Of a stretch of 42,255 bases of DNA, positions 11,543 through 29,611 are shown piece by piece. The translations under genes were made by a program, and so were the position numbers. Within the stretch, counting starts at the first letter, position 1. Each line of letters begins with the position of its first letter. The DNA is from a virus: IMG/VR virus record IMGVR_UViG_3300035701_000083, positions 1 to 42,255 of that record. One strand, given 5' to 3'. Below the pieces are notes generated by a model. The model ran no database searches, had not been told where the DNA came from, and saw nothing but the letters and a program-made list of their open reading frames with translations.

Positions 11543-11743
11543 ATGTTTAGAGCCGGGTATGAGAAATTTTGGTTGAAGGGAAAGAAATTTTATGCCGCGA
11601 AGATCATGGGGTTGAAGGGGTCGAGGCGATATTCGAGGCTGGCGTTCAAGCGGGCGAGTGAGGCGGAGGGGTATGCGGCGAGATGGCTGGAGAGGTGGGA
11701 GAGGATGAGATTGCTTCGGGGCATAGAACGCCCCTCGCAATGA
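11543..11743 (+). CDS. Small very basic protein, C-terminus from a repeat
   Basis: This 66-residue, Lys/Arg-rich protein (RAGYEKFWLKGKKFYAAKI, RRYSRLAFKRASEAEGYAARWLERWER) could bind nucleic acid. ATG 11543 follows GGAGGTTGAG. The last dozen residues (MRLLRGIERPSQ) and the stop codon come from a family E repeat (11707-11745), so the native end is probably replaced. Function unknown. Confidence 0.5.
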   Translation: MFRAGYEKFWLKGKKFYAAKIMGLKGSRRYSRLAFKRASEAEGYAARWLERWERMRLLRGIERPSQ

Positions 11744-11761
11744 CAAAGGATGGAGGTTGAG

Positions 11762-12094
11762 ATGAGCGAGTATAAGATCAATCCATATTTGAGCGGGACG
11801 GAGATGATCAGCAGGGAGCGGAGAAGGCAGGTCATAAAGGAGGGGTACAACGCGGATCATGATGCGAGACACGAGCCAGGGGCACTGGCGATGGCGGCAG
11901 CGGTGTACATCATGGGGGCGTGCTCAGGGATGCGGGGTGGAGGAGAACGACCAGGGGAGGTGATGATCTGCTGGCCATTCGAGGTTTCGGCTTACAACCC
12001 GAAGGATCCGCTGCGGGATTTGGTGAGGGCGGGGGCGTTGATCGCAGCGGAGATAGACAGGATGATGAGGGTGGAGGATGTTGGAGATGAGTGA
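11762..12094 (+). CDS. Conserved-type phage accessory protein (RRRQ..GY..DHD motif)
   Basis: This 110-residue protein is MSEYKINPYLSGTEMI, then SRERRRQVIKEGYNADHDARHEPGALAMAAAVYI, a WPFE segment and DLVRAGALIAAEIDRMMR. I recall this pattern from small early-region proteins of many tailed phages, whose function is unknown. ATG 11762 is directly after GGAGGTTGAG; an upstream in-frame ATG (11750) is less likely. A family A palindrome follows three bases after the stop. Confidence 0.65.
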   Translation: MSEYKINPYLSGTEMISRERRRQVIKEGYNADHDARHEPGALAMAAAVYIMGACSGMRGGGERPGEVMICWPFEVSAYNPKDPLRDLVRAGALIAAEIDRMMRVEDVGDE

Positions 12095-12096
12095 AA

Positions 12097-12120
12097 GGGC
12101 AATTCGTGAATTGCCCCAAC
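12097..12120. repeat. Palindromic repeat, family A
   Basis: GGGCAATTCGTGAATTGCCC plus CAAC, identical to the copy that splits the primase-helicase. It sits in the gap between 11762-12094 and the zinc-ribbon gene at 12140. Confidence 0.9.
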
Positions 12121-12139
12121 GGGAGGACGGAGGATCAAT

Positions 12140-12340
12140 ATGAGTAAAGAGACTGTGGAATTCACCGAGATCGCCAGGAGAGAGTACGCGGCGATCATCG
12201 AGCGGAGGTACATTTTCGAGATGCACTGGTGCCAGTTTTGCAGTCGGCAGACGATGCAGCGGCTGGAGATGCGGGGGACGCAGCACGAGAAGCGGTGGTG
12301 CCCGATATGCAGGATCGGGAAGATGGCGAGGGTGAGGTGA
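12140..12340 (+). CDS. Zinc-ribbon protein
   Basis: This is a 66-residue protein with two CxxC knuckles, WCQFCS (about 30-35) and WCPICR (about 53-58), a classic zinc ribbon. The N-terminal 25 residues are helical and acidic/basic. SD GGAGGA precedes ATG 12140. Its TGA overlaps the GTG start of the methylase (GTGA), so the two are probably coupled. It may bind nucleic acid or the methylase; unknown. Confidence 0.65.
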   Translation: MSKETVEFTEIARREYAAIIERRYIFEMHWCQFCSRQTMQRLEMRGTQHEKRWCPICRIGKMARVR

Positions 12341-13143
12341 TCACTCGTTCGGTGATGCGTTATCCGGGTGGAAAATATCGTTTGGCCGCGTGGGTAATCT
12401 CGCATTTTCCGGCTCATGAGACATATGTCGAGCTGTTTGGTGGGGCTGCCAGCGTGCTGATGAAAAAGACGCGTTCGATCGGTGAGGTTTATAACGATTT
12501 GAATGGAGATGTAGTGAATGTTTTCCGGATACTACGCGATCGTGAGCAGGCTGCAGAGCTGGCCAGGCTGCTTGCTCTGACGCCATATGCCAACGAGGAA
12601 TATCGGCTGGCATATGAAAATTGTGATGATCCGATCGAGCGAGCGCGTCGAATGATCTTCCGCTCATTTGCCGGGCATGGATCGGACAGCGTATTCAGGG
12701 CGCATGCTGGATTTCGGGGATATAAAAATAAACAAAGCGGTGTGACCACTGCGAATGAATGGTCAAATTTTCCCAAGGAGATCCCGGTTTTTGTCGAACG
12801 ATTACGGGTTGTGTGCATCGAACAAAGAGAAGCGATAAAGATCATCTCCATTTACGATCGTCCGGATACCCTGTTCTACGCCGATCCGCCATATTTAATA
12901 TCTACCAAGTCGGCGAGGAGTGTAAAGTATTTTTGTGAAATGACAGAAGAAGAGCATGTGGAGCTGGCAGTCATTTTACACAAGATCCAAGGAATGGCGA
13001 TCGTAAGCGGTTATCCGTCCGAATTATATGATCGAATTTATTCCGACTGGCGGTGTGTTCGGAAATCTCACAGGGCGCAAAATGCCAAAAAAACAACGGA
13101 GTGTTTATGGTTGTCGCCGAATATAAAAACTACGTTGTTTTGA
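12337..13143 (+). CDS. D12-class DNA adenine-N6 methyltransferase (Dam-like)
   Basis: This 268-residue enzyme transfers a methyl group from S-adenosylmethionine to adenine in DNA. It has RYPGGK near the N-terminus, the SAM-binding ELFGGAASVL motif, the catalytic DPPY (FYADPPYL, about 184-187), and the D12-family insert between them. A phage methylase commonly protects against host restriction or replaces host Dam. GTG 12337 overlaps the preceding stop; ATG 12355 is the alternative. Base composition is more balanced than in neighbours, suggesting separate acquisition. No matching restriction gene is visible, so it is an orphan. Confidence 0.9.
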   Translation: MITRSVMRYPGGKYRLAAWVISHFPAHETYVELFGGAASVLMKKTRSIGEVYNDLNGDVVNVFRILRDREQAAELARLLALTPYANEEYRLAYENCDDPIERARRMIFRSFAGHGSDSVFRAHAGFRGYKNKQSGVTTANEWSNFPKEIPVFVERLRVVCIEQREAIKIISIYDRPDTLFYADPPYLISTKSARSVKYFCEMTEEEHVELAVILHKIQGMAIVSGYPSELYDRIYSDWRCVRKSHRAQNAKKTTECLWLSPNIKTTLF

Positions 13144-13154
13144 GGAAATCAGGA

Positions 13155-13175
13155 GCGGGGCGACCCCGCCCATAC
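13155..13175. repeat. Palindromic repeat, family C
   Basis: GCGGGGCGACCCCGCCCATAC lies between the methylase and the HTH gene. Family C has GC-rich arms of varying sequence ending in CCC(C/A)TAC. Similar elements: 15341, 15499, 15661, 17515, 18844, 20484, 25923, 26485. Confidence 0.7.
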
Positions 13176-13211
13176 GTGGGTTGTTATCGTTTTTAACAAG
13201 GCATAAGGTCA

Positions 13212-13517
13212 ATGAAAAACGAAAACAGGTATCAATCATCGGCAATACGAAAACGGCTGCTAAAACGCCATGCGAGGGGCGCGACGTGGAGGGAGATCGC
13301 TGGCGATATTGGGTTGAATGTGAGCTATATTTTTAATTTTGCGGTGCACGGGGTGGAGCCGACGGAGCCTGCGGTGAGGGTGAAACTGGGGTTGAAGGCG
13401 GAGTGCCCGCGCTGCAAGAGGCGGGTGGTTTTGGCGCCGACCCGGCGATGGCACAGGTTGAGCAGCTTGAGCAGGGAGCAGGTTTATTATTTATTCGAGC
13501 ACAGAGAGGAGATGTGA
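13212..13517 (+). CDS. HTH protein with C-terminal zinc knuckle
   Basis: This is a 101-residue protein. Residues 10-45 (IRKRLLKRHARGATWREIAGDIGLNVSYIFNFAVHG) form a helix-turn-helix. A CPRC knuckle with basic flanks follows (ECPRCKRRVVLAPTRRW). Only one Cys pair is seen, so zinc binding would need His or a partner. It is probably a DNA-binding regulator of the accessory or late genes. SD AAGG is weak. Confidence 0.6.
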   Translation: MKNENRYQSSAIRKRLLKRHARGATWREIAGDIGLNVSYIFNFAVHGVEPTEPAVRVKLGLKAECPRCKRRVVLAPTRRWHRLSSLSREQVYYLFEHREEM

Positions 13518-13521
13518 GATC

Positions 13522-13851
13522 ATGTATAAAATTGTGGAGAGGAAAGCGAGGGTGGTGGGGATGGATGCGCCGCTGGCTCATGCCGTCTCGCACCGGCGTG
13601 CCGTCGTTGCTCCCGGCACGAACGGTGCCAGCGGCGTGCGCATGGGCGACTTGAAGCCGCCCATGCTTGAGGAGATTGCTTCGGGGCATACATGCACTCC
13701 CGAAGGGCACCGGGACGGGTGTGGCGGGCAGTGCCAGGGTAGAACGCACCTCGCAATGACAATGAGGGAGAGGCTGGTCGTGTGGGGGTTGGCGGCGCTG
13801 ATCTTGGTGGGGTTGGTGTTCGCGGTGATCGGCTGGGTGGGATTATGGTAA
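13522..13851 (+). CDS. Composite ORF: short N-terminus, inserted repeats, TM C-terminus
   Basis: One open frame of 109 residues has three parts. The first 15 residues (MYKIVERKARVVG...) begin at ATG 13522. Residues 18-80 translate palindromic repeat sequence, including a family E element at 13672-13763 and a GCCGCCCATGC-type palindrome before it. The last 29 residues from ATG 13762 (RERLVVWGLAALILVGLVF plus AVIGWVGLW) are a single membrane helix. The natural product may be only the 29-residue peptide, or a small membrane protein into which repeats were inserted in frame. Confidence 0.4.
   Translation: MYKIVERKARVVGMDAPLAHAVSHRRAVVAPGTNGASGVRMGDLKPPMLEEIASGHTCTPEGHRDGCGGQCQGRTHLAMTMRERLVVWGLAALILVGLVFAVIGWVGLW
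13672..13763. repeat. Dispersed repeat, family E (long form)
   Basis: GAGATTGCTTCGGGGCATAC ... CCTCGCAATGACA with a longer middle that itself holds GGCGGGCAGTGCCAGGG-type sequence, as in the copies at 29977 and 32502. Confidence 0.7.
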
Positions 13852-14015
13852 TGGCATTTGACTATATTTGGCATTGGCGCTGCAGATTGCCGGATCGAAA
13901 AGGGCAGCGATGCCGGGTGCTCATAAGAGGAAAAATGAATTCTATTTTGGTTGAATTTTTGGATGGCTATAAAGTGATCACATCACGATATGCAGTCAGG
14001 AGGTACGCAAACTAA
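13851..14015 (+). CDS. Small basic beta-rich protein
   Basis: This is a 54-residue protein (MAFDYIWHWRCRLPDRKGQ... then ILVEFLDGYKVITSRYAVRRY). It looks like a small beta-barrel for nucleic-acid or ligand binding. The ATG overlaps the preceding TAA; an in-frame ATG at 13845 is possible. Its last residues AN and its TAA stop come from a family B palindrome (14006-14027). Confidence 0.55.
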   Translation: MAFDYIWHWRCRLPDRKGQRCRVLIRGKMNSILVEFLDGYKVITSRYAVRRYAN

Positions 14016-14027
14016 CAGTTTGCGGTA
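14006..14027. repeat. Palindromic repeat, family B
   Basis: CGCAAACTAACAGTTTGCGGTA. The TAA in the loop is the stop codon of 13851-14015. Other copies: 15901-15923, 17385-17407, three tandem variants at 18630-18803, 22913-22936. Confidence 0.85.
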
Positions 14028-14032
14028 CCGCG

Positions 14033-14542
14033 ATGAATGAGGTGACGGTGCTGGAGGATGAATGCAACATGGAGGGTGTGCGGAGGCTGCACGTGATGAG
14101 CGGGACGGAGATCGATCTATCCCTACTGATGTGGTGGGTGCCGGTGCCAGCACAGGACATGGTCCAGGTGCGGGAGTGGGAGGAGGCGCAGCTGGGGGTG
14201 AAACATATGGAGCTGAAATGGAAGGCGCGGGAGGGGGTGCGCTGGCAGATCATGGTGGATGGGGCGACGGTGGAGTGGCATGGGGTGCTGTGGTTTATCG
14301 AGCCGGGCGGGAGGATATCGGAGGCGGTGGGGGATGCGGCGGGGAGGCACTGGGTGGAATTCGACTGCTGGCCGCAGTTCGGGTGGGTGAGGAGGCTACC
14401 GGAGGGGGTGGCGGAGGGGGTGGAGGTGGAGATCGGGGCAGGGGTGGAGGCGGTGATGGTGATGCTGGCGGAGTGGGTGCCTGCTGGGTTTGTGGCGGTG
14501 GGGCGCGGCGCAGGCGCCGCATCTACGAGAGGGGAAATTTGA
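14033..14542 (+). CDS. Unknown accessory protein, Trp-rich
   Basis: This is a 169-residue protein of extreme G-rich codon use. Residues 30-130 contain many Trp and alternating beta-like segments (WWVPVPAQDMVQVREW, MELKWKAREGVRWQIMVDG, VEWHGVLWFIEPGGRI, HWVEFDCWPQFGWVRRLPEG). The last 30 residues are low-complexity Val/Gly/Ala. No known motif. The next gene overlaps its stop. The other long frame across this stretch gives a glycine-rich nonsense peptide, so I prefer this frame. Confidence 0.5.
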   Translation: MNEVTVLEDECNMEGVRRLHVMSGTEIDLSLLMWWVPVPAQDMVQVREWEEAQLGVKHMELKWKAREGVRWQIMVDGATVEWHGVLWFIEPGGRISEAVGDAAGRHWVEFDCWPQFGWVRRLPEGVAEGVEVEIGAGVEAVMVMLAEWVPAGFVAVGRGAGAASTRGEI

Positions 14543-15381
14543 GAATTATACGGGTTTTTCCCAGACGGACCAGCATGACGCCGAGAGATCCGATGGCTTT
14601 TATTGGAGATCCGCCATTATGGAGACCTGAGGCAGATGAGGTGCATGTTTCGGTGACATTCACATGGGATATCTTAGAGGGGAGACGGTTGGGAACAGCA
14701 TGGGCAAACTATTATCCAGTTGTGAGGATGGGCGGGCCTGTATTTGGAGATAGGCCAGACGGTTTCGTGCCAGGATTTTATATCAAGCCAGGTGTGACAT
14801 TCACGACCAGAGGATGCAATAATCAATGTCCATGGTGCCTTGTTCCAAGCAGGGAAGGCCGGTTGATCGAGATGCCGGATTTTGCGCCCGGATGGATCAT
14901 CCAGGATAACAATTTGCTGCAGGCAAATCGGAAACACATTATGAAAGTTTTGGAGATGTTAAGATCACAACCAAAGGCGGCGATCCTATCAGGTGGATTA
15001 CAGGCGAGTTTGGTCAGCGACTGGTTTGCCGAAGAGCTTCGGACGATGCGGATCAACCAGGTTTTCATGGCGGCTGATACACCCGGAGCGATCGAACCGC
15101 TGAAGAAGGCGATCAAAAAATTGGAATTTTTGGGCAGACGAAAGCTGCGTGTCTATGTGATGATCGGCAGAAATGAAACGATAGAACAGGCAAGCGAACG
15201 ACTGCAGGAGGTCTGGGATATTGGTGTACTGCCGTTTGCACAGTTGTATCAGCCTGCGGTTAAGTTTGTTCGATATTCCCGGGATTGGCTGGATCTGGCG
15301 AGGACGTGGTCACGTCCAGCGGCGATGTTTAGCGATCAGGGGCGGGGTGCTTCGCGACCCGCCCATACAGGAGGTGCGTGA
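14539..15381 (+). CDS. Radical SAM protein
   Basis: This is a 280-residue protein with the radical SAM cluster motif CNNQCPWC (C93, C97, C100; CxxxCxxC), expected to bind a 4Fe-4S cluster and cleave S-adenosylmethionine. Upstream are IRVFPRRTSMTP and FIGDPPLWRP; downstream ILSGGLQASLV and RVYVMIGRNETIEQASERL fit the partial TIM barrel. The TTG start at 14539 overlaps the previous TGA and keeps the N-terminal RIIRVFPRR block; ATG 14575 is the alternative. Substrate unknown. The final residues (GRGASRPAHTGGA) and stop are encoded by a family C repeat. Base composition is more balanced than neighbours. Confidence 0.8.
   Translation: MRIIRVFPRRTSMTPRDPMAFIGDPPLWRPEADEVHVSVTFTWDILEGRRLGTAWANYYPVVRMGGPVFGDRPDGFVPGFYIKPGVTFTTRGCNNQCPWCLVPSREGRLIEMPDFAPGWIIQDNNLLQANRKHIMKVLEMLRSQPKAAILSGGLQASLVSDWFAEELRTMRINQVFMAADTPGAIEPLKKAIKKLEFLGRRKLRVYVMIGRNETIEQASERLQEVWDIGVLPFAQLYQPAVKFVRYSRDWLDLARTWSRPAAMFSDQGRGASRPAHTGGA
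15341..15369. repeat. Family C repeat at the radical SAM gene end
   Basis: GGCGGGGTGCTTCGCGACCC plus GCCCATAC: arms GGCGGGTCGCGAA-like pair with each other. It encodes the last codons of the radical SAM gene. A near-identical copy is at 15661-15687. Confidence 0.75.
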
Positions 15382-15707
15382 TGAGCGGAATTGAATGGTG
15401 CTGCAAGAACGGGCATGTGCTGGGGCTGGTGCTATCGAATGCGAGGGGGGTAAAGCAGCTGCTGTTGTATAGGGAGGCGCATGATCTGATGCAGCACAGG
15501 GCGCAGCTTGCTGCGCCCCTACAAATACCGGATACGATTGCGATCGTGAGGTATGCGAAGGATATACGATGTTCGATGTGCGGGGAGAAGAGGCCGTGGA
15601 TGATCGGGAGGGATGCGATCGAGGAGCTGGGGTTGAGGCTGGAGAAGCTGGTGGGGAGAGGCGGGGTGCTTCGCGACCCGCCCGTACGGAGGGAGGCGGG
15701 GAGATGA
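15378..15707 (+). CDS. Small zinc-binding protein carrying two repeat-encoded segments
   Basis: This is a 109-residue protein. WCCKNGHVLGLV near the N-terminus and RCSMCGEKRPW near residue 65 form a plausible zinc ribbon. The segment HRAQLAAPLQ is the translation of a family C palindrome at 15499-15522, and the C-terminus GGVLRDPPVRR of another at 15661-15687. The GTG start at 15378 overlaps the previous stop; the next codon is ATG. Function unknown. Confidence 0.6.
   Translation: MMSGIEWCCKNGHVLGLVLSNARGVKQLLLYREAHDLMQHRAQLAAPLQIPDTIAIVRYAKDIRCSMCGEKRPWMIGRDAIEELGLRLEKLVGRGGVLRDPPVRREAGR
15499..15522. repeat. Family C palindrome inside a coding region
   Basis: GGGCGCAGCTTGCTGCGCCC plus CTAC. 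It is 24 bases long (a multiple of three), so the reading frame of the host gene is kept. Confidence 0.85.
15661..15687. repeat. Family C repeat at a gene end
   Basis: GCGGGGTGCTTCGCGACCCG plus CCCGTAC, near-identical to 15341-15369. It encodes most of the C-terminus of 15378-15707. Confidence 0.75.
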
Positions 15708-15910
15708 TCGAGAGGGACGAGGATGGATTCTATGCGGCATGCGATAACTGCTCGAGCGAGAAGGAGATCCACCAGGGGAGTTTCGAGAGGGCGGTGGAGG
15801 TGCTGAAGATGTTCGGGTGGAAGGTGGTCAGGATCAGGGGAAAATATTATAATTTATGTCCGGGGTGCGATGCCGCGGCGTTCGTGAGGAAGGAAAACTG
15901 CGCAAACTAA
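15704..15910 (+). CDS. Zinc-ribbon protein, end encoded by a repeat
   Basis: This is a 68-residue protein with CDNCSS (about 13-18) and LCPGCDAA (about 51-58), a zinc ribbon split by a helix/strand region ([26 protein letters not shown]). This alternation resembles small phage proteins with a zinc ribbon around an alpha/beta insert. ATG 15704 overlaps the previous TGA. The last residues CAN and the stop are from a family B palindrome (15901-15923). Confidence 0.65.
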
Positions 15911-15923
15911 CAGTTTGCGGTAC
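15901..15923. repeat. Palindromic repeat, family B
   Basis: CGCAAACTAACAGTTTGCGG plus TAC, the same as at 14006. TAA within it stops the gene 15704-15910. Confidence 0.85.
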
Positions 15924-15936
15924 GAGGAGGCGAGTG

Positions 15937-16677
15937 ATGGGTGAGACGACGGGAATACCGTATTGTGATGGGACGTGGAATCCGTGGCAGGGATGTCACA
16001 AGGTGAGCGAGGGATGCAGGAACTGCTATATGTTCCGCGAGAAAACGTGGCATGGGCAAGAACCGAACGTGGTGGTAAGGTCGAAGGAGGCTACGTTCCT
16101 GGCGCCGCTGAAGTGGGAAAACAAGCGGATTTTCGTTTGCTCATGGAGCGATTTTTTCATCAAGGAGGCAGATGGTTGGAGGGATGAGGCCTGGGAGGTG
16201 ATGAGGCAGGCGGTGACAAATACGTTCCTGATACTGACGAAGAGACCGGAGAGAATTAAACGATGCCTGCCGCGGGATTGGGGGAGTGGATGGGAGAATG
16301 TGTGGCTGGGGGTGAGCGTGGAAAACCAGGAGCAGGCGGATCGTAGGATATTACAATTGTTTTATAATCCTGCTAAAATTCACTGGGTATCGGCTGAACC
16401 ATTATTGGAGAACATACCATTTTTTAACATGGTTGATTGGATTGTGGTTGGGGGGGAAAGCGGGCCAGGCTGCAGGCCAATCGGTGTTGGATGGGCGAGA
16501 GATTTGCTAACATTGGCAAGATCAAACGGAAAAAAATTTTTCATGAAGCAGTTGGGTGGATGGCCGGACAAGAGGGACAAGATGGAGGATTTTCCGGAGG
16601 ATTTGAGGGTGAGGGAGTGGCCGGAGGGGCACCTACGGGCCGCACCTACGGGAGGGGATGGGAGAGAAATCAAGTAA
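15937..16677 (+). CDS. Phage Gp37/Gp68 family protein (DUF5131, radical SAM-like)
   Basis: This 246-residue protein starts [38 protein letters not shown] with C20, C27 and C30 is the signature of the phage Gp37/Gp68 family, regarded as related to radical SAM proteins. Also typical are [42 protein letters not shown] and [13 protein letters not shown]. The biochemical role is not established to my knowledge. It is the second cluster-binding protein in 1.5 kb, so the two may act in one pathway (inference). SD GAGGAGG, partly in the tail of the repeat. The C-terminus includes a palindromic GGGCACCTACGGGCCGCACC element. Confidence 0.85.
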
Positions 16678-16696
16678 AATATAGATGTGGAGGATT

Positions 16697-16894
16697 ATGA
16701 TGAAGAGAAGAAATGAAGAAATTCAAATGAAAAAACTTGGATTTAGAGTGGCTAGAGAGACGCTAAACAAAATTGCGTTCCAGCAAGGGGTATTTGCTGG
16801 TGCCATAGCCAGAGCGACGATTTCGGTTACGGAGTTGGGTAAGGTAATCAATGACCTCAAATGCAAATATTCTATTTGGCAGGTTAGGAAGTAA
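16697..16894 (+). CDS. Small basic helical protein
   Basis: This is a 65-residue protein starting at ATG 16697 (next ATG 16700) after GTGGAGG. KRRNEEIQMKKLGFRVARETL and GVFAGAIARATISVTELGKVINDL suggest helices. The gene is more AT-rich than its upstream neighbour. No family recognised; a short DNA-binding or toxin/antitoxin-like role cannot be told from the sequence. Confidence 0.5.
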   Translation: MMKRRNEEIQMKKLGFRVARETLNKIAFQQGVFAGAIARATISVTELGKVINDLKCKYSIWQVRK

Positions 16895-16902
16895 GATTTG
16901 GT

Positions 16903-17127
16903 ATGGCAAAAAAATTATTTCGTTGGTATTGTCATCACTGCAATGTTGAGTATTATGGTCTGAAGGATACGTGGGAATGTCCAATATGCGGGGGGAATTC
17001 TAAAAGGATTGAATGGACCGGTGGTTATATTGGAGGCACAATAAAGTCTATGGATAATGGTTGCCAAAGTTTGCCAGAGCCATACGGGAGGTTGACAAAA
17101 GGAGAAGAAAATGAAACATATACATGA
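16903..17127 (+). CDS. Zinc-ribbon protein
   Basis: This is a 74-residue protein. YCHHCNVEYYG and ECPICGG are two zinc knuckles 14 residues apart, a rubredoxin-like ribbon. The C-terminal half (WTGGYIGGTIKSMDNG...) is less structured. It is the next-to-last gene before the late promoter/terminator unit; some late antitermination proteins carry zinc ribbons, so it is one candidate for that role (inference). The stop region overlaps the start of the next gene. Confidence 0.6.
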   Translation: MAKKLFRWYCHHCNVEYYGLKDTWECPICGGNSKRIEWTGGYIGGTIKSMDNGCQSLPEPYGRLTKGEENETYT

Positions 17128-17335
17128 ATGGACTACACGATACATCAAGTTTGGTAGCCGACATCAGTATGACGCTGCGTCCGGTATGCAATGCAAATGC
17201 GGTGCCGAATTGAGCCAGTATCAGATTGAACATATTATTAATGTAGCGGAGATGGCTGCGGAGGGAGGGGCGGGGGCTCAGATTAAAAAGAGTATCGAAA
17301 AGATGAAGAATGAATTCAGCACGTACGAGAAGTAG
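17111..17335 (+). CDS. Small His/Cys-containing protein before the late promoter
   Basis: This is a 74-residue protein, ATG 17111 behind AAAAGGAGAAG. The start MKHIHEWTTRYIKFG and the single knuckle MQCKCGAEL could bind a metal together. Residues 35-70 are helical (YQIEHIINVAEMAAEG, QIKKSIEKMKNEF). Function unknown; it could be a late regulator because the putative late promoter begins 8 bases after its stop. Confidence 0.55.
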   Translation: MKHIHEWTTRYIKFGSRHQYDAASGMQCKCGAELSQYQIEHIINVAEMAAEGGAGAQIKKSIEKMKNEFSTYEK

Positions 17336-17342
17336 AGTGAGG

Positions 17343-17370
17343 TTGACAAAAGAGGAATACGGCATATAAT
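17343..17370 (+). promoter_or_regulatory. Consensus promoter before the late operon
   Basis: TTGACA (17343-17348) and TATAAT (17365-17370) with a 16-bp spacer match sigma70 consensus exactly, as in the early promoter. The start would be near 17377, with a terminator about 70-100 bases downstream. The TTGACA context (GAGGTTGACAAAAG) resembles a segment at 17089-17102 inside the previous gene, so a partial duplication may have created it. Confidence 0.65.
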
Positions 17371-17376
17371 GTGAGG

Positions 17377-17484
17377 GAATGGGGCGCAAACTAACAGTTT
17401 GCGTTACGCAGGTCCCCGGAGTTGAGGGGACCAGTGGACGGGTTGAGCGCCGTCGTGTCGAAAGACACGGCGGCGTTTTTGTTT
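17377..17484 (+). ncRNA. Short structured late leader RNA (PR'/6S-like)
   Basis: Between the consensus promoter and the terminator, a transcript of about 105 nt would contain three hairpins: a family B palindrome (17385-17407), GGTCCCC/GGGGACC (about 17411-17432) and the terminator (17448-17475). It contains no gene. The layout copies the lambda late leader, where RNA ends early unless antitermination occurs; hairpins in the leader could also act in cis like HK022 put sites. This is inference. Confidence 0.45.
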
Positions 17485-17485
17485 T
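17448..17485 (+). terminator. Strong intrinsic terminator before late genes
   Basis: A 12-bp stem CGCCGTCGTGTC/GACACGGCGGCG (one G-T pair) closes on a GAAA tetraloop and is followed by TTTTTGTTTT. It separates the accessory genes from the late operon. Confidence 0.9.
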
Positions 17486-17538
17486 GGGCAATTCGTGAAT
17501 TGCCCTTACAGATTAGGGCGGGGACCCCGCCCCTACAG
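17486..17538. repeat. Family A and family C palindromes, back to back
   Basis: GGGCAATTCGTGAATTGCCC plus TTAC (17486-17509), then AGGGCGGGGACCCCGCCCCT plus ACAG (17515-17538). The second element runs into the AGGAGG ribosome binding site of the next gene. Confidence 0.85.
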
Positions 17539-17547
17539 GAGGTAACG

Positions 17548-17928: not shown

Positions 17929-17940
17929 GAGGGCGGGATG

Positions 17941-17990
17941 ACCCCACCCCTAACCCCTCCCCATCGGAAAAAATACCGATGGAGAGGGGG
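17941..17990. repeat. Family D repeat supplying the terS ribosome binding site
   Basis: ACCCCACCCCTAACCCCTCC, then CCATCGG-A(n)-CCGATGG and AGAGGGGG: an imperfect palindrome with pyrimidine- and purine-rich outer arms. Its purine arm lies 11 bases before ATG 18001 and can act as SD. Copies: 21835, 24712, 25854, 25979, 29612. Confidence 0.8.
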
Positions 17991-18000
17991 AGATGAAAAA

Positions 18001-18663: not shown

Positions 18664-18827
18664 TCGCAAACCAGCGGTTTGCGTTACGGTCGAGGGAGGG
18701 TCGGATGAGAATGGCGGATAATCGCAAACCAGCGGTTTGCGTTACGGTCGAGGGAGGATCGGATGAGAATGGCGGATAATCGCAAACCAGCGGTTTGCGT
18801 TACGGTCGAGGGAGGATCGGACAAGAA
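18630..18827. repeat. Tandem 58-bp repeat of the terS end plus palindrome
   Basis: Three full 58-bp units (18630, 18688, 18746) and a partial fourth (18804). Each holds 34 bases of the terS 3' end including its TAA, and a family B palindrome variant GCAAACCAGCGGTTTGC with GTTAC. Only 1-2 bases differ between units, so the array is recent. Confidence 0.92.
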
Positions 18828-18843
18828 TGATGATGACGGATAA

Positions 18844-18867
18844 GGGCGCAGCATGCTGCGCCCCTAC
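18844..18867. repeat. Family C perfect palindrome before terL
   Basis: GGGCGCAGCATGCTGCGCCC plus CTAC, a perfect 20-base palindrome. A GGGGTCCCC follows, then the terL SD GGAGG. Confidence 0.9.
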
Positions 18868-18890
18868 GGGGTCCCCACGGAGGTATGTGA

Positions 18891-20477
18891 ATGATGCTTG
18901 ATGTTTCCACCGCGACCAGACGAGACGTCGCCCCTACGAACATGCGGATCACGCCGGAGGCGGCGGTGCAGGAGATCGCGAGGAGGGAGGCGGCGCGGCG
19001 GGGGTTGATCGATTTCTCGACCTATGTGGCACCATGGTACAGACCGGCACCGCACCACATCCTGGTGGCGGAGAAGCTGGAACAGGTCAAGCGTTTCATC
19101 GAAACGGAGGGGCGGGAGGGGATCGGCAGGCTGATGATCTTCGAGCCGCCGAGGCATGGAAAATCGGAGCAGGTGTCGCGACTATTCCCGGCATGGCTGC
19201 TGGGGAAGATGCCGGACGTGCGGGTGATACTGACGGCGTATGGGGCGGACCTGGCGCAATCGGACAGCCGGGCGGTGAGGGCATACGTGACCGGGCCGAG
19301 GTACGGCAACGTGTTCGGGGAGAGATCGACGGAGGAAACGCCGGTGGAGCTGAGCGCAGACAGCCGGGCGATATCGAACTGGAACCTGGCGGCGCCGAAC
19401 CGGGGAGGTCTGATAGCGGCGGGCGTGGGAGGCGGGATCACGGGTTTCGGGGCGGACTACCTGAGCATCGACGATCCGTTCAAATCGCGGGATGATGCGC
19501 TGAGCGAGCTGTACCGGAGGCGGGTGATGGATTGGTACCGATCGGTGGCGTACACGCGGCTGGAGAAGGCGGGGGCGGTGGTGATCACGCACACGCGCTG
19601 GGACCAGGAGGACCTGGCCGGGCAATTATTGATGGAGATGGCCAGCAACGAGGAGGCGGACCAGTGGGAGGTGATCTTCCTACCGGCGGTTGCGCTGGAC
19701 GAGGACATGTATCCAAAAACGGAGGAGGAATTTCGGGAGAACTTATTGCGAGGGATTTATATCCCGCTGGGGGGGGATGTGCTGGGTCGGTCGCCGGGGG
19801 ACCCCTTGTGGCCAGAGAAATACAGCAGCGAGAAGCTGCAACAAATTCAGGCGAACATCCAGATTTTCGAGTACGTGTCATTATTTTTGCAGATGCCGCG
19901 GCTGGTGAAGGGCGGGTTCTTCGATGAGGCGGATTTCTTGTTCGTGGACAAGGCGCCGGAGGGACTGCAGTGGTTCCGGTACATCGACCTGGCGCTGGGC
20001 AAGAGCGAGGCGAGCGATTTCAACGTGACGATCGCAGTGGCGCTGAATGATGAGTCAGGAATTTTATATGGGCGGGACATGCTGAAGGTGCGCAACCTGG
20101 AGGAATTTCTACCGCTGTGCAAGACGTTGATGCTTTCGGAGGGGGAGGCGGGCACGATCTGGGGAGTGGAGGACGTGTCGTTCCAGGCGCTGGTGGTGAA
20201 GGAATTTTTGAAGGATGCTGAATTGGCAGACGTGACGATCAAGCCGGTGAAACCAAAGGGGGACAAGATGACCCGGGCCAGGCCATGGCAGGGGCGGGCG
20301 AAGCAGAGGAAGGTGAAGCTGGTGCGGGCGGCATGGAACCGTCCGTTCATCCGGACGGCGGCGGCATTCTCGGCGACGGCGAGGTTCGATGATGAGATCG
20401 ACAGCATGAGCGGCGGGGTGCAGATGGTGGCGGAGCAGAGCAGGCTGAGGAAGACGGTGAGATGCTATGCCGGATGA
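18891..20477 (+). CDS. terL: Terminase large subunit
   Basis: This 528-residue DNA-packaging motor has an N-terminal ATPase with Walker A EPPRHGKS (85-92), Walker B YLSIDDPF (190-197) and coupling motif THTRWDQEDLAG (about 235). The C-terminal RNase H-like nuclease has acidic residues in RYIDLALGK (about 363), WGVEDVSF (about 425) and FDDEIDSMSGG (about 503). It cuts concatemers and translocates DNA into the prohead with the small subunit and portal. Residues 9-17 (TRRDVAPTN) translate a family C half-repeat (18921-18937), so the extreme N-terminus is repeat-derived. The gene overlaps the portal start by 11 bases. Confidence 0.95.
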   Translation: MMLDVSTATRRDVAPTNMRITPEAAVQEIARREAARRGLIDFSTYVAPWYRPAPHHILVAEKLEQVKRFIETEGREGIGRLMIFEPPRHGKSEQVSRLFPAWLLGKMPDVRVILTAYGADLAQSDSRAVRAYVTGPRYGNVFGERSTEETPVELSADSRAISNWNLAAPNRGGLIAAGVGGGITGFGADYLSIDDPFKSRDDALSELYRRRVMDWYRSVAYTRLEKAGAVVITHTRWDQEDLAGQLLMEMASNEEADQWEVIFLPAVALDEDMYPKTEEEFRENLLRGIYIPLGGDVLGRSPGDPLWPEKYSSEKLQQIQANIQIFEYVSLFLQMPRLVKGGFFDEADFLFVDKAPEGLQWFRYIDLALGKSEASDFNVTIAVALNDESGILYGRDMLKVRNLEEFLPLCKTLMLSEGEAGTIWGVEDVSFQALVVKEFLKDAELADVTIKPVKPKGDKMTRARPWQGRAKQRKVKLVRAAWNRPFIRTAAAFSATARFDDEIDSMSGGVQMVAEQSRLRKTVRCYAG

Positions 20478-21927
20478 GAAAAAGGGCGACGTGACGTCGC
20501 CCCTACGGGTAAAAGATCTGGAGCGGGCGTTCAAGATGTTGAACAGTAAGAAACTCGTCTATGACAAGCTGTTCAACTACTACGAGGGCAAACAACCGCT
20601 GGTGTACCTAGCGAGCAGGCTGGACGAGATATTCAAGGACTTAAACGCTTACTTCGCGGAGAACTGGTGCTCGGTGGTGATCGACTCGGCACGGGACCGG
20701 ATCAACCTGAAGGAGATCCAGATCCAGGACGTCACGGCGGCGAAGACGTGGGCGGAGATCTGGGAGAGGTCGGAGCTGGCGCTGGAGAGCGACGAGGTGC
20801 ACGAGGCGGCGATGGTGGCGGGTGAGGGCTACGTGGTGGCATGGCCGGACAACGAGGGCAGGATCGAGGCGTATGCGAACGATCCGCGCATGTGCCATAT
20901 TTTCTATGAGCCGGAATTCCCACGGAAGAAAAAATTTGCGGCGAAATGGTGGGTGGATGACGGCGAGCGGATGCGGATGACGCTGTACTACCCGGACAGG
21001 CTGGAGTACTACATCAGCAGCAAGAAGGCGGAAAACGTCACGAGTTATCAATCGCTGGTGGCGATGAAGGTGGACAAGGCGGAAAACAAGTTCAAGGAGG
21101 TACCGGTATTCCATTTCCGGCTGGCGAGGAAATTGAAGAGCGACCTGACGAACGTGGTGCCGATACAGAACGGGATCAACAAGATCCTGACGGACATGAT
21201 GGTGACGGCGGAGTTCCAGGCGTTCCCGCAGCGGTACGTGATCAGCCAGGCGGATATCAAGGGTAAGCTGAAGAACGCGCCGAGGATGATCTGGGAGCTG
21301 CCAGCGGGGGACGGGATGAGCCAGCAGACGGTGGCGGGGCAGTTTGCGGCGGCGGATCTGGAGAACTACCTGAAGGCGATCGACAACCTGGCGGGGGCGA
21401 TCTCATCGATCACGCGGACGCCGAAGCACTATTTTTTCAGCGTGGGATCGAATTTATCAGGAGAAGCACTTATTGCGATGGAGGCGCCGCTAAACAAGAA
21501 GGCGAAGGACCGGATCGACCGGTTCACGCCAGCGTGGAAGCAGACGGCGTTGTTCATGCTGCGGGCGGCGGGGGTGACGATCGAGGCGAGCAAGGTGAAC
21601 GCGATCTTCGACAAGCCGGAGACGATCCAGCCGAGGACGCAGGCGGAGACGCGGCAGATGAACGTGATAGCGGGTCTGCCGATACGGACGATTTTGCGGG
21701 AGGAGGGGAAATCGGAGGAGGAGATCAAGCAGGTGGAGAGGGATATCGCGGAGGCGAAGACGGCGCAGGCGAACCTGGCGAGCGCGTACCTGGCGGAGGC
21801 GAGGAAGAAGTTCGACCAGGAGAACCCCAACCTGAACCCCACCCTGAACCCCACCCCTAACCCCTCCCCATCGGAAAAACACCGATGGAGAGGGGAAATG
21901 GAGAGGGGAAATGGAGGGGATGAATGA
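20467..21927 (+). CDS. Portal protein (SPP1 gp6-like)
   Basis: This 486-residue protein is expected to form the dodecameric channel at one capsid vertex. LFNYYEGKQPL near the start, NWCSVVIDSARDRI, a long DPRM...YYPDRLEYY central part, IQNGINKILTDMMV, SITRTPKHYFFSVGSNLSGEALIAMEAPL and the helical stem fit SPP1-type portals. It sits between terminase and MuF genes, the standard order. Residues 7-14 (GDVTSPL) are encoded by a family C palindrome (20484-20506), and the last 30 residues (NPTLNPTPNPSPSEKHRWRG...) by a family D repeat (21835-21898). So both ends of an essential protein carry repeat-derived peptides. Confidence 0.9.
   Translation: MPDEKKGDVTSPLRVKDLERAFKMLNSKKLVYDKLFNYYEGKQPLVYLASRLDEIFKDLNAYFAENWCSVVIDSARDRINLKEIQIQDVTAAKTWAEIWERSELALESDEVHEAAMVAGEGYVVAWPDNEGRIEAYANDPRMCHIFYEPEFPRKKKFAAKWWVDDGERMRMTLYYPDRLEYYISSKKAENVTSYQSLVAMKVDKAENKFKEVPVFHFRLARKLKSDLTNVVPIQNGINKILTDMMVTAEFQAFPQRYVISQADIKGKLKNAPRMIWELPAGDGMSQQTVAGQFAAADLENYLKAIDNLAGAISSITRTPKHYFFSVGSNLSGEALIAMEAPLNKKAKDRIDRFTPAWKQTALFMLRAAGVTIEASKVNAIFDKPETIQPRTQAETRQMNVIAGLPIRTILREEGKSEEEIKQVERDIAEAKTAQANLASAYLAEARKKFDQENPNLNPTLNPTPNPSPSEKHRWRGEMERGNGGDE
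20484..20506. repeat. Family C palindrome inside the portal gene start
   Basis: GGGCGACGTGACGTCGCCCC plus TAC within codons 6-14 of the portal gene. Confidence 0.88.
21835..21898. repeat. Family D repeat inside the portal gene end
   Basis: Doubled AACCCCACCCT(A/G)AACCC arms followed by CATCGG-A(n)-CCGATG and AGAGGGG, all in the portal reading frame. It continues into short GGAGAGGGGAAAT units and the overlap with the next ATG. Confidence 0.85.
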
Positions 21928-22904
21928 ACGGGGAGCCGCGGGTGGTGCAGGTGATGCGGGAGCACAAGGCGCTGATCCTGGCGCAAGAGGAAGCGACGAT
22001 GCGCGAGATGGCGGAGGCGTGGGTGCGGGTAGAGATGAGGCTGGAGGCGCAGATGGCGGCACTGGTATATGAGGCGGCGGCGCTGGCGAGGGGAGGTCAG
22101 GTATTGAGCCAGGCGCAGCTTTTCCAGATGGAGCGATATCGCAGCCTGATGGCGCAGGTGGAGATGGAGATGAGAAAGTACACGCGCTGGGCGGATGAGT
22201 CGATGACGGCTTACCAGGCGAGGCTGGCGGAGCAGGGGCTGGTGCACGCGGCGGAGGCGATCCGGGCGGTATACACGGAGGCGGGGGTTATTGGGGCACA
22301 TTTCAACGTGCTGAACGCGGGGGCGGTGGAGGCGATGATCGGGCTGGCGGGGGATGGGAAGCCATTGATGAATTATTTGAAGGATATTTACCCGACGAGC
22401 GTGGAGGGGATCAGGGGGACGCTGGTGGATGGGGTGGCGCAGGGTTGGGGGGCGGAGAAGCTGGGGAGAGAGTTGCGGGACAGCTTCGGGATGGGATTGC
22501 AGCAGGCGATGAACACGGCGCGGACGGAGGGGCTGCGGGCGTACCGGTCGGCGAGCCTGATGGAGTATCGAGAGAGCGGGGTGGTGAGCAGGTACAAGCG
22601 GTTATCGGCGCACGACGAGAGGGTGTGCGCGGGATGCCTGTTCATGGATGGGCAGGAGGTGGAGGGTCTGGAATTATTCGACGAGCACAACCAGGGTCGA
22701 TGCACGGCGGTGCCGTGCGTGGAGGGGGTGGAGAAGCCGGAGTGGACGGCGGGGAAGGAGTGGTTCGAGGGGCAGAGCGAGAATGTGCAGGAGAGCATTT
22801 TGGGGACGGGCAGGTTCGAGGCGTGGAAGGACGGGGCATCATTGGAGGAGATGGTGGTGAGGAAGACGGACCCGGTGTGGGGAGGGGCGTATGTGGCGAG
22901 GTGA
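21924..22904 (+). CDS. MuF/SPP1 gp7-like minor head protein
   Basis: This is a 326-residue protein. The N-terminal 120 residues are long charged helices (REHKALILAQEEATMREMAEAW, MERYRSLMAQVEMEMRKY). The MuF domain lies at about 180-260: MNTARTEGLRAYRSASLMEY, then HDERVCAGCLFMDGQ and NQGRCTAVPCV, where the Cys/His set may bind metal. MuF proteins bind the portal and are packaged in the head, sometimes ejected into the host. ATG overlaps the portal stop by 4 bases. Confidence 0.88.
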   Translation: MNGEPRVVQVMREHKALILAQEEATMREMAEAWVRVEMRLEAQMAALVYEAAALARGGQVLSQAQLFQMERYRSLMAQVEMEMRKYTRWADESMTAYQARLAEQGLVHAAEAIRAVYTEAGVIGAHFNVLNAGAVEAMIGLAGDGKPLMNYLKDIYPTSVEGIRGTLVDGVAQGWGAEKLGRELRDSFGMGLQQAMNTARTEGLRAYRSASLMEYRESGVVSRYKRLSAHDERVCAGCLFMDGQEVEGLELFDEHNQGRCTAVPCVEGVEKPEWTAGKEWFEGQSENVQESILGTGRFEAWKDGASLEEMVVRKTDPVWGGAYVAR

Positions 22905-22912
22905 GGCGATAT

Positions 22913-22936
22913 CGCAAACTAGACAGTTTGCGTTAC
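22913..22936. repeat. Palindromic repeat, family B variant
   Basis: CGCAAACTAGACAGTTTGCG plus TTAC in the 69-base gap between the MuF and scaffold genes. Confidence 0.88.
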
Positions 22937-22973
22937 GACAACAAAACAGGCGAGATGCCGGAAGGAGATCGAG

Positions 22974-23606
22974 ATGATCTACGGATTGAAAGGTTTGAAT
23001 TTCTACCCTGATGCCGGGGGAGGCAGCACGAGTGCTGCATCTTCAACCGGTGCGGGTGGGAATGAGGGCAAAGTTGGAGGGGCAATTCGTGAATTGCCCC
23101 AACAGGCTGACCAGGGAAGGAATGAAGGCGAGACGCTGACATTCGAGAGCTGGATTGCCGGGCAACCGAAAGAGGTAAAGGATTTGCTGGATGGGCATAC
23201 GGCGGGCTTGAGGACGGCGCTGGGGTCCGAGCGGGAGATCCGCGAGGACACCGAGAAGAAGCTGCGAACGATGGCCGAGAAGGCCGAAAAAGGGAGTGAG
23301 TCCCAAAGGCAGCTGGTCGAGATGGCCGACAAGATTGCGGAATCAGATCAAAAAGCCGATTTCTACGAGGATGCTCATGCGGCGGGCGTGACGAACCTGA
23401 AGCTGGCGTACATCGTGGCGAAGCAGGAGGAGCTTTTCGACAAGCGGGGCCGGGTGAATTTCGAGGCGATGAAGAAAGATTACCCGGAGTTGTTTGCCGG
23501 AACGGTCAATGCTGCGGGAAACGCGGGCAGCGGGACGGAAGGGAACCTGGCAGGCAAGGGCGATATGAATACTTTCATAAGGCAGTCTGCCGGGAGGGGA
23601 ACGTAG
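22974..23606 (+). CDS. Probable scaffold protein, with a repeat-encoded internal peptide
   Basis: This is a 210-residue protein just before the capsid gene. Residues 60-130 form a highly charged helix with coiled-coil character (SEREIREDTEKKLRTMAEKAEKGSESQRQLVEMADKI), as in scaffolds. The tail MNTFIRQSAGR is typical of this type. The N-terminal 45 residues are Gly/Ser-rich; inside them GAIRELPQ is the translation of a family A palindrome (23079-23103). A 25-base insertion is not a multiple of three, so the present frame must have been adjusted around it or the peptide is in a tolerant N-terminus with a changed start. Confidence 0.78.
   Translation: MIYGLKGLNFYPDAGGGSTSAASSTGAGGNEGKVGGAIRELPQQADQGRNEGETLTFESWIAGQPKEVKDLLDGHTAGLRTALGSEREIREDTEKKLRTMAEKAEKGSESQRQLVEMADKIAESDQKADFYEDAHAAGVTNLKLAYIVAKQEELFDKRGRVNFEAMKKDYPELFAGTVNAAGNAGSGTEGNLAGKGDMNTFIRQSAGRGT
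23079..23103. repeat. Family A palindrome inside the scaffold gene
   Basis: GGGGCAATTCGTGAATTGCC plus CCAAC, read through in frame as GAIRELPQ. Confidence 0.9.
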
Positions 23607-23685
23607 GGCGTGGGCTGAGATCGCAGCACGCCCATACAAGGGCGCGGCGTCTGGCAGCCAACTACGGGCTGCACCTGCGGGAGAA

Positions 23686-23722
23686 GACTCTTCGTTCGCA
23701 AAGGACGCTCGCTCAGAGTGAC
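23686..23722. repeat. Dispersed repeat, family F
   Basis: GACTCTTCG ... CGCTCAGAGTGACA: an inverted repeat (ACTCT/AGAGT) with a variable middle, in the gap before the capsid gene. A second copy is at 33788-33813. Confidence 0.7.
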
Positions 23723-23747
23723 ATGAGAGAAAAGACGGAGGTATGAA

Positions 23748-24710
23748 ATGCCATACAACAGTTTAATCAGCCGCAGTGATGCGGCAGCGCTGATCCCCGA
23801 GGAGGTCAGCAAGGAGCTTTTGACCCAGATCACGGAGGAAAGCGCGGTGATGAGGTTGAGCCGGAGGTTGGCGGATATGAGCCGGGCGCAGAAACGGATG
23901 CCGGTGATGTCGGCGCTGGCGACAGCGTATTTCGTGAGCGGTGATACCGAGTTGAAGCAGACCAGTGAAGTGAACTGGGCAAACAAGTATATCGATGCCG
24001 AGGAGCTGGCAGTCATCGTGCCAATCCCGGAGGCGGTGCTGGATGATGCTGACTACGATATCTGGGGCGAGGTGAAACCCAGCGTGGCGGAGGCTTTCGG
24101 GATCGCGATCGATGCGGCGGTGCTGTACGGGACGAACATCCCGGCAAGCTGGATAATCAACCTGGGGGCGGCAGGCTTGATAGCGGGTGCGCTGGCGGCC
24201 AGCCACCAGATCTCGGCGGCAGCCTACACGGACCTATACGAGGCGATCCTGGCGGAGACGGGGGCGGGCGCCGACGGGTTGTTCATGCTAGTGGAGGCTG
24301 ACGGCTACATGGTCACGGGCGCTCTGGCGCACATGTCGATGAAGGGCAAGCTGCGCAACGTGCGCGACACGAATGGGCAACCGATATTCAAATCGACGAT
24401 GCAAGCGCCGACGAGCTACGAGCTGGACGGCAATCCGATCCTGTTCCCGAAGAGCGGGGCGATCTCGGCGACGTACTGGCTGATCGCAGGGATGTGGGCG
24501 AGCCTGGTGTACGCCATGCGGCAGGATATCACGTACAAGATCCTGACGGAGGCGGTGATCACGGATGCGAGCGGGAAGATCATCTATAACCTGGCGCAGC
24601 AGGACATGGTGGCGCTGCGGGCGGTAATGCGCCTGGGCTTTGCGCTGCCACACCCGGTGACCCGGATGGATACGGGGACGGGTTATCCGTTTGCGACGTT
24701 GACGGCGTGA
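23748..24710 (+). CDS. Major capsid protein (HK97 fold)
   Basis: This 320-residue protein follows the scaffold gene, as in most siphoviruses. LIPEEVSKELLTQITEESAVMRLSRRL at the start, KRMPVMSALATAYFVSGDTELKQTSEVNWANKYIDAEELAVIVPIPEAVLDDA (E-loop/P-domain region) and the C-terminal HPVTRMDTGTGYPF fit the phage major capsid family of the HK97 fold. No N-terminal delta domain is obvious because a separate scaffold exists; no protease gene was seen, so the prohead is probably not proteolysed. AGGAGGT-like SD GGAGGT precedes ATG 23748. Confidence 0.9.
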   Translation: MPYNSLISRSDAAALIPEEVSKELLTQITEESAVMRLSRRLADMSRAQKRMPVMSALATAYFVSGDTELKQTSEVNWANKYIDAEELAVIVPIPEAVLDDADYDIWGEVKPSVAEAFGIAIDAAVLYGTNIPASWIINLGAAGLIAGALAASHQISAAAYTDLYEAILAETGAGADGLFMLVEADGYMVTGALAHMSMKGKLRNVRDTNGQPIFKSTMQAPTSYELDGNPILFPKSGAISATYWLIAGMWASLVYAMRQDITYKILTEAVITDASGKIIYNLAQQDMVALRAVMRLGFALPHPVTRMDTGTGYPFATLTA

Positions 24711-24711
24711 C

Positions 24712-24857
24712 CCCACCCCTAACCCCTCTCTTAACCCCACCCCTAACCCCTCCCTTAACCCCACCCCTAACCCCTCCCCATCGGGAAAACACCGATGGAG
24801 AGGGGAATAGAGCGGAGAATGGAGAGGGGAATGGAGAGGAGAATGGAGAGGGGAAGA
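24712..24857. repeat. Family D repeat, expanded array
   Basis: Three units of CCCCACCCCTAACCCCTC on the left arm, the CATCGG/CCGATG hairpin, then about five units of GGAGAGGGGAAT on the right arm. Pyrimidine and purine arms have expanded separately. It fills the gap after the capsid gene. Confidence 0.85.
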
Positions 24858-29610: not shown

Positions 29611-29611
29611 G

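Follow-up and report, generated by a model that had tools for sequence, protein, structure and literature searches.

The phage genome IMGVR_UViG_3300035701_000083, an IMG/VR virus record analyzed here over its full length of 42,255 bp (the window), carries short palindromic elements of three types that resemble repetitive extragenic palindromes (REPs). These hairpins have an asymmetric tag and a uniform orientation, are concentrated at gene boundaries within a single 26-kb part of the genome, and are absent or different in related phages. An element that lies over a gene end or a linker is translated and yields a stop codon, a tail at the C-terminus, or a short insert in frame, as shown by homology for several proteins and by direct reading for others. 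Probably, this phage was entered repeatedly by REP-type elements such as those that are numerous in bacterial chromosomes, also in the class of the probable host, and their hairpins came to be translated at gene ends.

Inventory and placement of the palindromic elements

Repeat and hairpin scans of the window recovered palindrome families at the places named in the initial annotation, which had been made from the sequence. A total of 40 short palindromic elements were listed by hand, in a non-blind manner. They all fall within 9.0-35.4 kb of the window and have one orientation throughout. They are given below, with the corresponding sequences of the sister phage L001 where these differ and with one half palindrome that is outside the count of 40 (ORF, open reading frame; SD, Shine-Dalgarno sequence).

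9113..9136 (+), palindrome GGGCAATTC-GT-GAATTGCCC followed by CAAC; contains the 7998-9125 stop and the GTG start of 9122-10948
11488..11524 (+), TGTC-type (GATTGCTTCG..TCGCAATGACA), 5' of ORF 11543-11743; not in L001
11704..11745 (+), TGTC-type, gives the C-terminus and stop of ORF 11543-11743; L001 has GGGCGTGGAAACCACGCCC-GTAC instead
12097..12120 (+), CAATTC-type palindrome directly 3' of the 11750-12094 stop; L001 has GGGCGGGGAGACCCCGCCC-CTAC
13151..13174 (+), GGGGCGACCCCGCCC-ATAC element
13669..13761 (+), TGTC-type within ORF 13522-13851, with additional palindromic sequence on its 5' side
14006..14027 (+), CGCAAACTAACAGTTTGCG-GTAC, its loop TAA terminating ORF 13851-14015; L001 has GGGCGCAGCTTGCTGCGCCC-CTAC
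14505..14526 (+), GCGGCGC-AG-GCGCCGC-ATCTAC, codes the C-terminal GAGAASTRGEI of ORF 14033-14542
15342..15367 (+), GGCGGGGTGCTTCGCGACCCGCCC-ATAC, codes the C-terminus of the radical SAM ORF
15499..15521 (+), GGGCGCAGC-TT-GCTGCGCCC-CTAC, within ORF 15378-15707 (HRAQLAAPLQ)
15660..15688 (+), GGCGGGGTGCTTCGCGACCCGCCC-GTAC, codes the C-terminus of ORF 15378-15707
15901..15922 (+), CGCAAACTAACAGTTTGCG-GTAC, its loop TAA terminating ORF 15704-15910
17385..17406 (+), CGCAAACTAACAGTTTGCG-TTAC, flanked by a promoter-like site and an intrinsic terminator; common to L001
17486..17509 (+), CAATTC-type palindrome with tail TTAC, intergenic
17516..17535 (+), GGGCGGGG-A-CCCCGCCC-CTAC, intergenic
17939..17989 (+), C-rich-tailed palindrome, its right arm a possible SD for ATG 18001
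18665..18802 (+), 58-bp unit three times in tandem, each with CGCAAACCAGCGGTTTGCG-TTAC (18665, 18723, 18781)
18844..18866 (+), GGGCGCAGCATGCTGCGCCC-CTAC, upstream of the terminase gene
18921..18937 (+), half palindrome GACGTCGCCCCTACG at the terminase N-terminus (RRDVAPT), outside the count
20484..20505 (+), GGGCGACGT-G-ACGTCGCCC-CTAC, portal N-terminus (GDVTSPL)
21846..21895 (+), C-rich-tailed palindrome, codes the portal C-terminus
22913..22935 (+), CGCAAACTAGACAGTTTGCG-TTAC, between the Mu-F-like and scaffold genes
23079..23103 (+), GGGGCAATTCGTGAATTGCCCC-AAC, within the scaffold gene (GAIRELPQQ)
23606..23638 (+), GGGCGTG...CACGCCC-ATAC, at the scaffold stop
23688..23724 (+), TGTC-type (ACTCT..AGAGTGACA), intergenic
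24708..24805 (+), C-rich-tailed palindrome with a tandem tail, begins at the major capsid stop codon
25852..25901 (+), C-rich-tailed palindrome at the 24888-25853 stop
25924..25946 (+), TCGGCGCC...GGCGCCGA-TAC, intergenic
25971..26021 (+), C-rich-tailed palindrome, intergenic
26485..26514 (+), GGGGCATGGC...GCCGTGCCCC-TAC, intergenic
29610..29657 (+), C-rich-tailed palindrome at the 29158-29610 stop
29975..30043 (+), TGTC-type, overlaps the 29673-29978 stop
30142..30189 (+), TGTC-type, intergenic
32062..32086 (+), GGGGCAATTCATGAATTGCCCC-AAC, between the two copies of a duplicated gene
32499..32562 (+), TGTC-type, intergenic
33027..33060 (+), TGTC-type, intergenic
33795..33821 (+), TGTC-type (ACTCT..AGAGTGACA), codes the C-terminus of ORF 33492-33830
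35282..35384 (+), TGTC-type, two copies (35282-35328 and 35337-35384), intergenic

With gene starts checked by hand beforehand, a gene boundary was found no more than 40 nt away from 33 of the 40 elements (10.0 with random placement, maximum 20 in 2000 draws). With all types pooled, this is the placement of GTAG REPs, which lie mostly between co-directional ORFs and near 3' ends. As many as 22 elements are fully intergenic (random 2.4, maximum 9), and the other 18 touch coding sequences (CDSs). The claim of the initial annotation that the repeats are translated holds, in frame, where they overlap genes, but this is the minority case.

The REP-like types comprise the GTAG-like-tagged elements (GGGC-stem-GCCC-[N][AT]AC), the TGTC-tagged elements, and the C-rich-tailed elements. 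Several of the families in the initial annotation, which described many families at once in a phage, represent a single architecture: the CAATTC, GGGG, GCAGC, and GACGT-type elements have a common GGGC..GCCC frame followed by [N][AT]AC, with covarying inner stems. Double changes in the inner stem, with all cells pairing, were seen at 4 of the 8 pairs in set A2 (8 sequences) and at 4 of the 9 pairs in set A3 (11 distinct sequences of 13); because these sequences were selected as hairpins, full pairing is built in, and the informative part is the common frame with its variable inner stem. Read on the opposite strand, these elements form a GTWN-hairpin, like GTAG REPs. The TGTC tag is also on the opposite strand, in the GATTGC...GCAATGACA (ATTGC) and AGAGTGACA (AGAGT) families, and is found in all 8 ATTGC-type window copies matched by the pattern.

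A scan for tail-hairpins (hairpins with [N][AT]AC as a tail) found 19 matches on the plus strand of the window and 2 on the minus strand, whereas 20 dinucleotide shuffles scanned in the same way gave a mean of 0.85 and a maximum of 4; two of the plus-strand matches (32523 and 37736) are outside the families. Strand counts are 9:0 for the TGTC type (GATTGC..GCAATGAC), 7:0 for the C-rich-tailed type, and 16:0 for the tail-hairpins of L001, one of which is chance-like. These counts bear on the view that the terminal peptides are native and the palindromes are effects of chance or codon bias. High-GC DNA yields spurious hairpins and ORF ends, and some N-terminal extensions appear spurious, but the excess over the shuffles and the lack of the peptides in relatives, which refutes this view for the portal, scaffold, and ORF 15378, make it exceedingly improbable. 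Chance origin of the palindromes themselves was ruled out by the shuffle counts together with the enrichment at boundaries.

The remaining 15.9 kb of the window (1-9000 and 35400-42255) is devoid of palindromic elements. In these parts, much of the matching DNA of a relative is conserved. L071, the other half of the relative's record, which matches mainly the element-free parts, contains one tail-hairpin per strand.

Different palindromes at the same junctions of a sister phage

The main blocks of L001 share 84-90% identity with the window over the region 8.3-15.7 kb. Among ten L001 intervals anchored on both sides and matching element-bearing intervals of the window, at least eight contain a clean hairpin of another family; seven of these were found by script, and the eighth (12097; L001 3816-3834), which the scoring of the script had missed, in the tail-hairpin scan. 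By eye, the remaining two intervals contain imperfect palindromes. Elements 15499 and 17385 are common to both phages, 15342 is absent in L001, and 14505 is shorter there. The 17385 hairpin is part of a unit (17343-17480) that also has a perfect promoter-like TTGACA-16-TATAAT and, ∼105 nt on, an intrinsic terminator, and that might encode a small RNA without an Rfam match. It is 95% conserved in L001 (8512-8659) and partly repeated at L001 14861-14933, where the second copy (to 14933) has another hairpin at the same position. The junction after the major capsid stop codon has its own palindrome in each of L020, L022, L023, and L024.

Such replacement is also what the main rival reading would predict, namely, that the junction hairpins are functional RNA elements of the phage that stabilize mRNA, serve in its processing, or belong to the ribosome-binding region. 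Each junction would require a hairpin, for which any palindrome would suffice, so that the sequence turns over and the hairpin persists. In its favor, other hairpins occupy the matching L001 junctions, the two copies of the promoter-RNA-terminator unit in L001 each keep a hairpin, although a different one, the window elements are co-oriented with genes, and an SD-like motif is found no more than 20 nt downstream of 32 of the 40 elements (random 15.3, maximum 28). However, 15.9 kb of the window manages without such elements, several of them are located within or at the start of ORFs, and none is followed by a T-run. Intrinsic terminators, in particular, were ruled out by T count, as none of the 40 elements has more than 3 T among the 8 nt that follow it; the one clear coding-strand intrinsic terminator is at 17445-17478, and the terminator-tool matches at 20504 and 15919 belong to the non-coding strand. 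A scan of the window against Rfam gave no matches at the gathering score (one match with an E value of 0.45, far under the threshold, was disregarded). An RNA role is considered unlikely.

Even less likely is that the palindromes mark recombination boundaries between which gene cassettes come and go, leaving the translated ends as scars. Window genes missing from L001 (11543-11743 and 15704-15910) are indeed bracketed by elements, and the place between the 14505 and 15342 elements is taken by another gene in L001. Nevertheless, the bracketing elements belong mostly to different families, so that homologous recombination between them is not obvious, and the swapped junctions at 12097 and 17486 show no gene change.

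Element-encoded protein sequences

Translation of the hairpins seems to be a side effect of their insertion at the ends of genes, and the encoded peptides are most likely passengers. Alignment with homologs, proposed as a check in the initial annotation, revealed inserts lacking in relatives of the portal, the scaffold, ORF 15378, and ORF 14033, so that in-frame palindromes within proteins, typical of Rickettsia palindromic elements (RPEs), are seen by alignment in the first three. Portal proteins from L021, L023, and L026 start with MSIQDL and that from L025 with MITDL, aligned near residue 13 of the window protein. Upstream of this residue, the available start codons are limited to ATG 20467 and a GTG of the palindrome itself. 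Translation must therefore cover at least part of the palindrome, which lies in the N-terminal stretch KKGDVTSPLR. The portal C-terminus comes from a C-rich-tailed element; L020 has a different tail there (SPSPQPSPTGRG), and L024 and L029 end short. Both portal peptides had been correctly assigned to repeats in the initial annotation.

The same applies to the scaffold peptide GAIRELPQ. In the window, GAIRELPQQ is inserted between native N-terminal residues and ETLTFESW (stretch GAIRELPQQADQGR); it is missing in L020, L021, L023, and L026, and L022 has a Gln-Gly-rich linker of its own at this place. The predicted insert HRAQLAAPLQ in ORF 15378 is common to L001, slightly changed (loop TT/AC), whereas the proteins from L002, L006, and L008 are ∼6 residues shorter and that from L019 has other residues. 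Homologs of ORF 14033-14542 stop at VAVG(G) with other short tails, and the window protein extends by GAGAASTRGEI. Judging from these alignments, both portal termini, the scaffold linker, the C-terminus of ORF 14033, and the internal stretch of ORF 15378 are element-encoded.

For other proteins, the evidence comes from direct reading, which bore out the proposed repeat-encoded C-termini of ORFs 11543-11743, 13851-14015, and 15704-15910 and of the radical SAM protein. In 13851-14015 and 15704-15910 the stop is the TAA of the hairpin loop; no homologs of these two were found except a weak phrog_17873 match for 15704-15910, 11543-11743 is not in L001, and these orphan ORFs (11543, 13851, and 15704) were judged from sequence alone. 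The radical SAM C-terminus is palindrome-encoded at a spot that has no palindrome in L001, where the upstream gene differs. ORF 33492-33830 obtains its C-terminus from the AGAGTGACA family. The primase ends within the 9113 palindrome, and its L001 homolog, by hand reading, ends with ..GGATPPVRGDDG in another palindrome, GGGCGGGGCGACCCCGCCC-GTAC. The 9113 palindrome with its stop and GTG start, as well as the palindrome-encoded C-terminus of ORF 14033-14542, are additions to the initial annotation.

The terminase N-terminus, listed initially as another repeat-encoded peptide (RRDVAPTN), is a weaker case: it is ∼10 residues longer than in six relatives, contains only a half palindrome, and is probably element-encoded. 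At roughly this N-terminal place, the L001 terminase has AILELPQQ, which stems from another family, and AI[RL]ELPQQ is thereby found in two non-homologous proteins, the window scaffold and the L001 terminase. The N-terminal extensions assigned by the ORF caller to 17938, 24795, 25952, and 26490 are probably untranslated; a downstream start is backed by homologs in the first three and by an SD seen by eye only in 26490. For annotation, these observations serve as a warning that SPSPQPSP tails and AIRELPQQ are insert-derived and that several predicted N-terminal extensions are likely spurious.

Related elements in bacterial chromosomes and other viruses

Relatives of the terminase are found in other IMG/VR contigs and in three metagenome-assembled genomes (Anaerolinea thermophila, Anaerolineales bacterium, and Chloroflexi bacterium HGW-Chloroflexi-6), so the host probably belongs to this Anaerolinea/Anaerolineales/Chloroflexi group. 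The TGTC type was detected in 7 of the 11 genomes examined, which hold relatives of the terminase or of other families and are not a random draw. Genome G075 has the most copies (238 + 215 = 453), with tag counts of 63 TGTC and 6 CGTC. The chromosomal copies are balanced between strands and often form inverted pairs; this is a high-copy dispersed chromosomal family, as in CGTC REPs. The CAATTC type is found in 6 of 199 genomes of the class (presumably Anaerolineae, judging by their titles), with up to 34 matches, and in none of the 61 genomes of the family of G001. In L054, GTAG-type hairpins lie near a PF01797 gene. Among viral contigs, the CGCAAAC pattern matched only the record of L001, and the GGCGGGGTGCTTCG pattern had no match. 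A named relative of the window, Rctr41k (KX853513.1), has 13 listed hairpins, including 8 C-rich-tailed palindromes, 5 between annotated CDSs and 3 within CDSs (hand tally).

The TGTC type is present in at least 119 viral loci, which, among the matches listed, were clustered to 60 groups; the counts that follow refer to the same matches. In 13 of the 15 groups with two or more sites, the sites are strand-uniform (6.1 expected; none of 10,000 simulations was as concordant). The direction of the genes matches the orientation of the elements in 38 of 48 groups, and GC skew does so in 39 of 48. Before clustering, agreement with GC skew (77 of 88) versus genes (57 of 94) seemed to decide for replication over transcription as the cause of orientation, but clustering levels both, making them inseparable. 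Of 17 element-against-gene loci tested with 20 proteins, 10 had capsid or portal matches that confirmed the direction of the genes. TGTC elements that oppose such confirmed genes in some phages, and chromosomes full of the same families, both argue further against an RNA role of the hairpins.

Several observations weigh against repeated entry of host-type REPs into this phage. The exact CTAC/GTAG tail is present in 13 of 32 elements (window and L001, by eye), the rest being variants, mostly [N][AT]AC. The CGCAAAC family is nearly absent from the genomes examined (3 places in 2 of 396 genomes). In chromosomes, CAATTC copies usually carry a tag on either side, and in phages on one. The single near-empty site, that of 15342 in L001, showed no target-site duplication, which is a hallmark of miniature inverted-repeat transposable elements (MITEs). 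TGTC elements run against gene direction in 37 of 94 loci unclustered and in 10 of 48 groups clustered. Finally, co-occurrence with RAYT as a link to the elements proved uninformative: PF01797 is encoded in all 6 CAATTC-type genomes, yet also in 45 of 60 class genomes, and was not found in any of 10 phage records.

Other features of the phage genome

Head and tail genes recognized with Pfam and PHROGs include those for the terminase, an SPP1-type portal, a Mu-F-like protein, the major capsid protein, and a tail assembly chaperone. A tandem gene duplication at 31673-32479 (copies 31691-32056 and 32112-32480, nucleotide identity up to 94%) has a palindrome between the copies. Segments 2572-2843 and 4324-4595 form an inverted repeat (272 nt, 82% complementary). 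Genes 5256-6135 and 9480-10320 are related to each other (73% identity over 83 nt); by eye, both look like P-loop ATPases, one as if it were a partial duplicate of the other.

Proposed mechanism and implications

The strand uniformity suggests single-strand, strand-specific insertion, which is known for IS200/IS605 elements (compare PMC8266576 and PMC2817692). The elements could come from the host and be inserted strand-specifically, as single-stranded hairpins, by a host enzyme, which may be an IS200/IS605/RAYT-like HUH transposase or another one. Insertions within essential genes would be purged, so that elements would be kept at junctions, termini, and linkers, and quick turnover would leave different elements at one junction in sister phages.

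On a broader and distinctly more speculative level, phages could both harbor and transport bacterial REPs, which would enter on one strand only, as would be the case if REPs were inserted during replication by a host enzyme acting on single strands, settle at every tolerant junction, be swapped quickly, be taken up into proteins, and be carried to new hosts. If this doubtful extension were true, phage carriage would help explain REP families common to unrelated bacteria, and strand uniformity would reveal in which direction phages replicate. The spread of REPs is an open question, for which the window and L001 represent a natural experiment in insertion and turnover; in close phage pairs, unit boundaries, target preference, and the strand rule can be read.

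Comparison with known repeat systems

Among non-autonomous repeats, MITEs are said to invade viral genomes (PMC6004678 and PMC4495683). Viral MITEs are inverted-repeat derivatives of transposons, and the window elements are hairpins of 20-100 nt. RPEs (RPE-1 and others) are longer than the window elements and, like them, are palindromes translated in frame within or at the ends of proteins. Unlike in Rickettsia, the window elements are found mostly at gene ends, belong to several families, and affect phage head proteins. The parallel with Rickettsia drawn in the initial annotation was apt: the ATTGC and AGAGTGACA families end in TGTC, a variant of the tag of the CGTC super-family, within which the R. 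conorii elements RPE-4 and RPE-6 are placed, with TGTC variants noted, in PMC3733652 (Di Nocera 2013).

CGTC-tagged REPs are matched here by TGTC-ATTGCGAG...GCAATC units, with TGTC, like CCTC, being a named tag variant. Chromosomal copies are often inverted pairs and phage copies are mostly unpaired and strand-uniform; what they share with RPEs is the tag. GTAG-tagged REPs (Di Nocera 2013; RAYT-associated REPs and REPINs) are similarly 20-30-nt hairpins, one end of which bears GT(A/T)N as an unpaired tag, found between co-directional genes, downstream of ORFs, and sometimes within ORFs. The window elements differ from them in being single units in a phage, in one orientation, with a tag that is only partly GTAG.

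The same paper reports GTAG REPs in Chloroflexi and places GTAG and CGTC REPs mostly downstream of genes. It also describes REPs inside ORFs, REP-supplied stop codons, and element-encoded termini, all of which are, accordingly, already known in bacteria, as well as two Xanthomonas recB genes with different REPs at about the same site. The abundant REP families of two REP-rich species are stated there to be confined to core genome regions. In the open-license literature searched, no report was found of a REP-loaded, strand-uniform phage with different hairpins at the junctions of a sister phage. Compared with these systems, the elements described here stand out in that they are in a phage, lie all on one strand, and differ from the palindromes at the same junctions of a sister phage.

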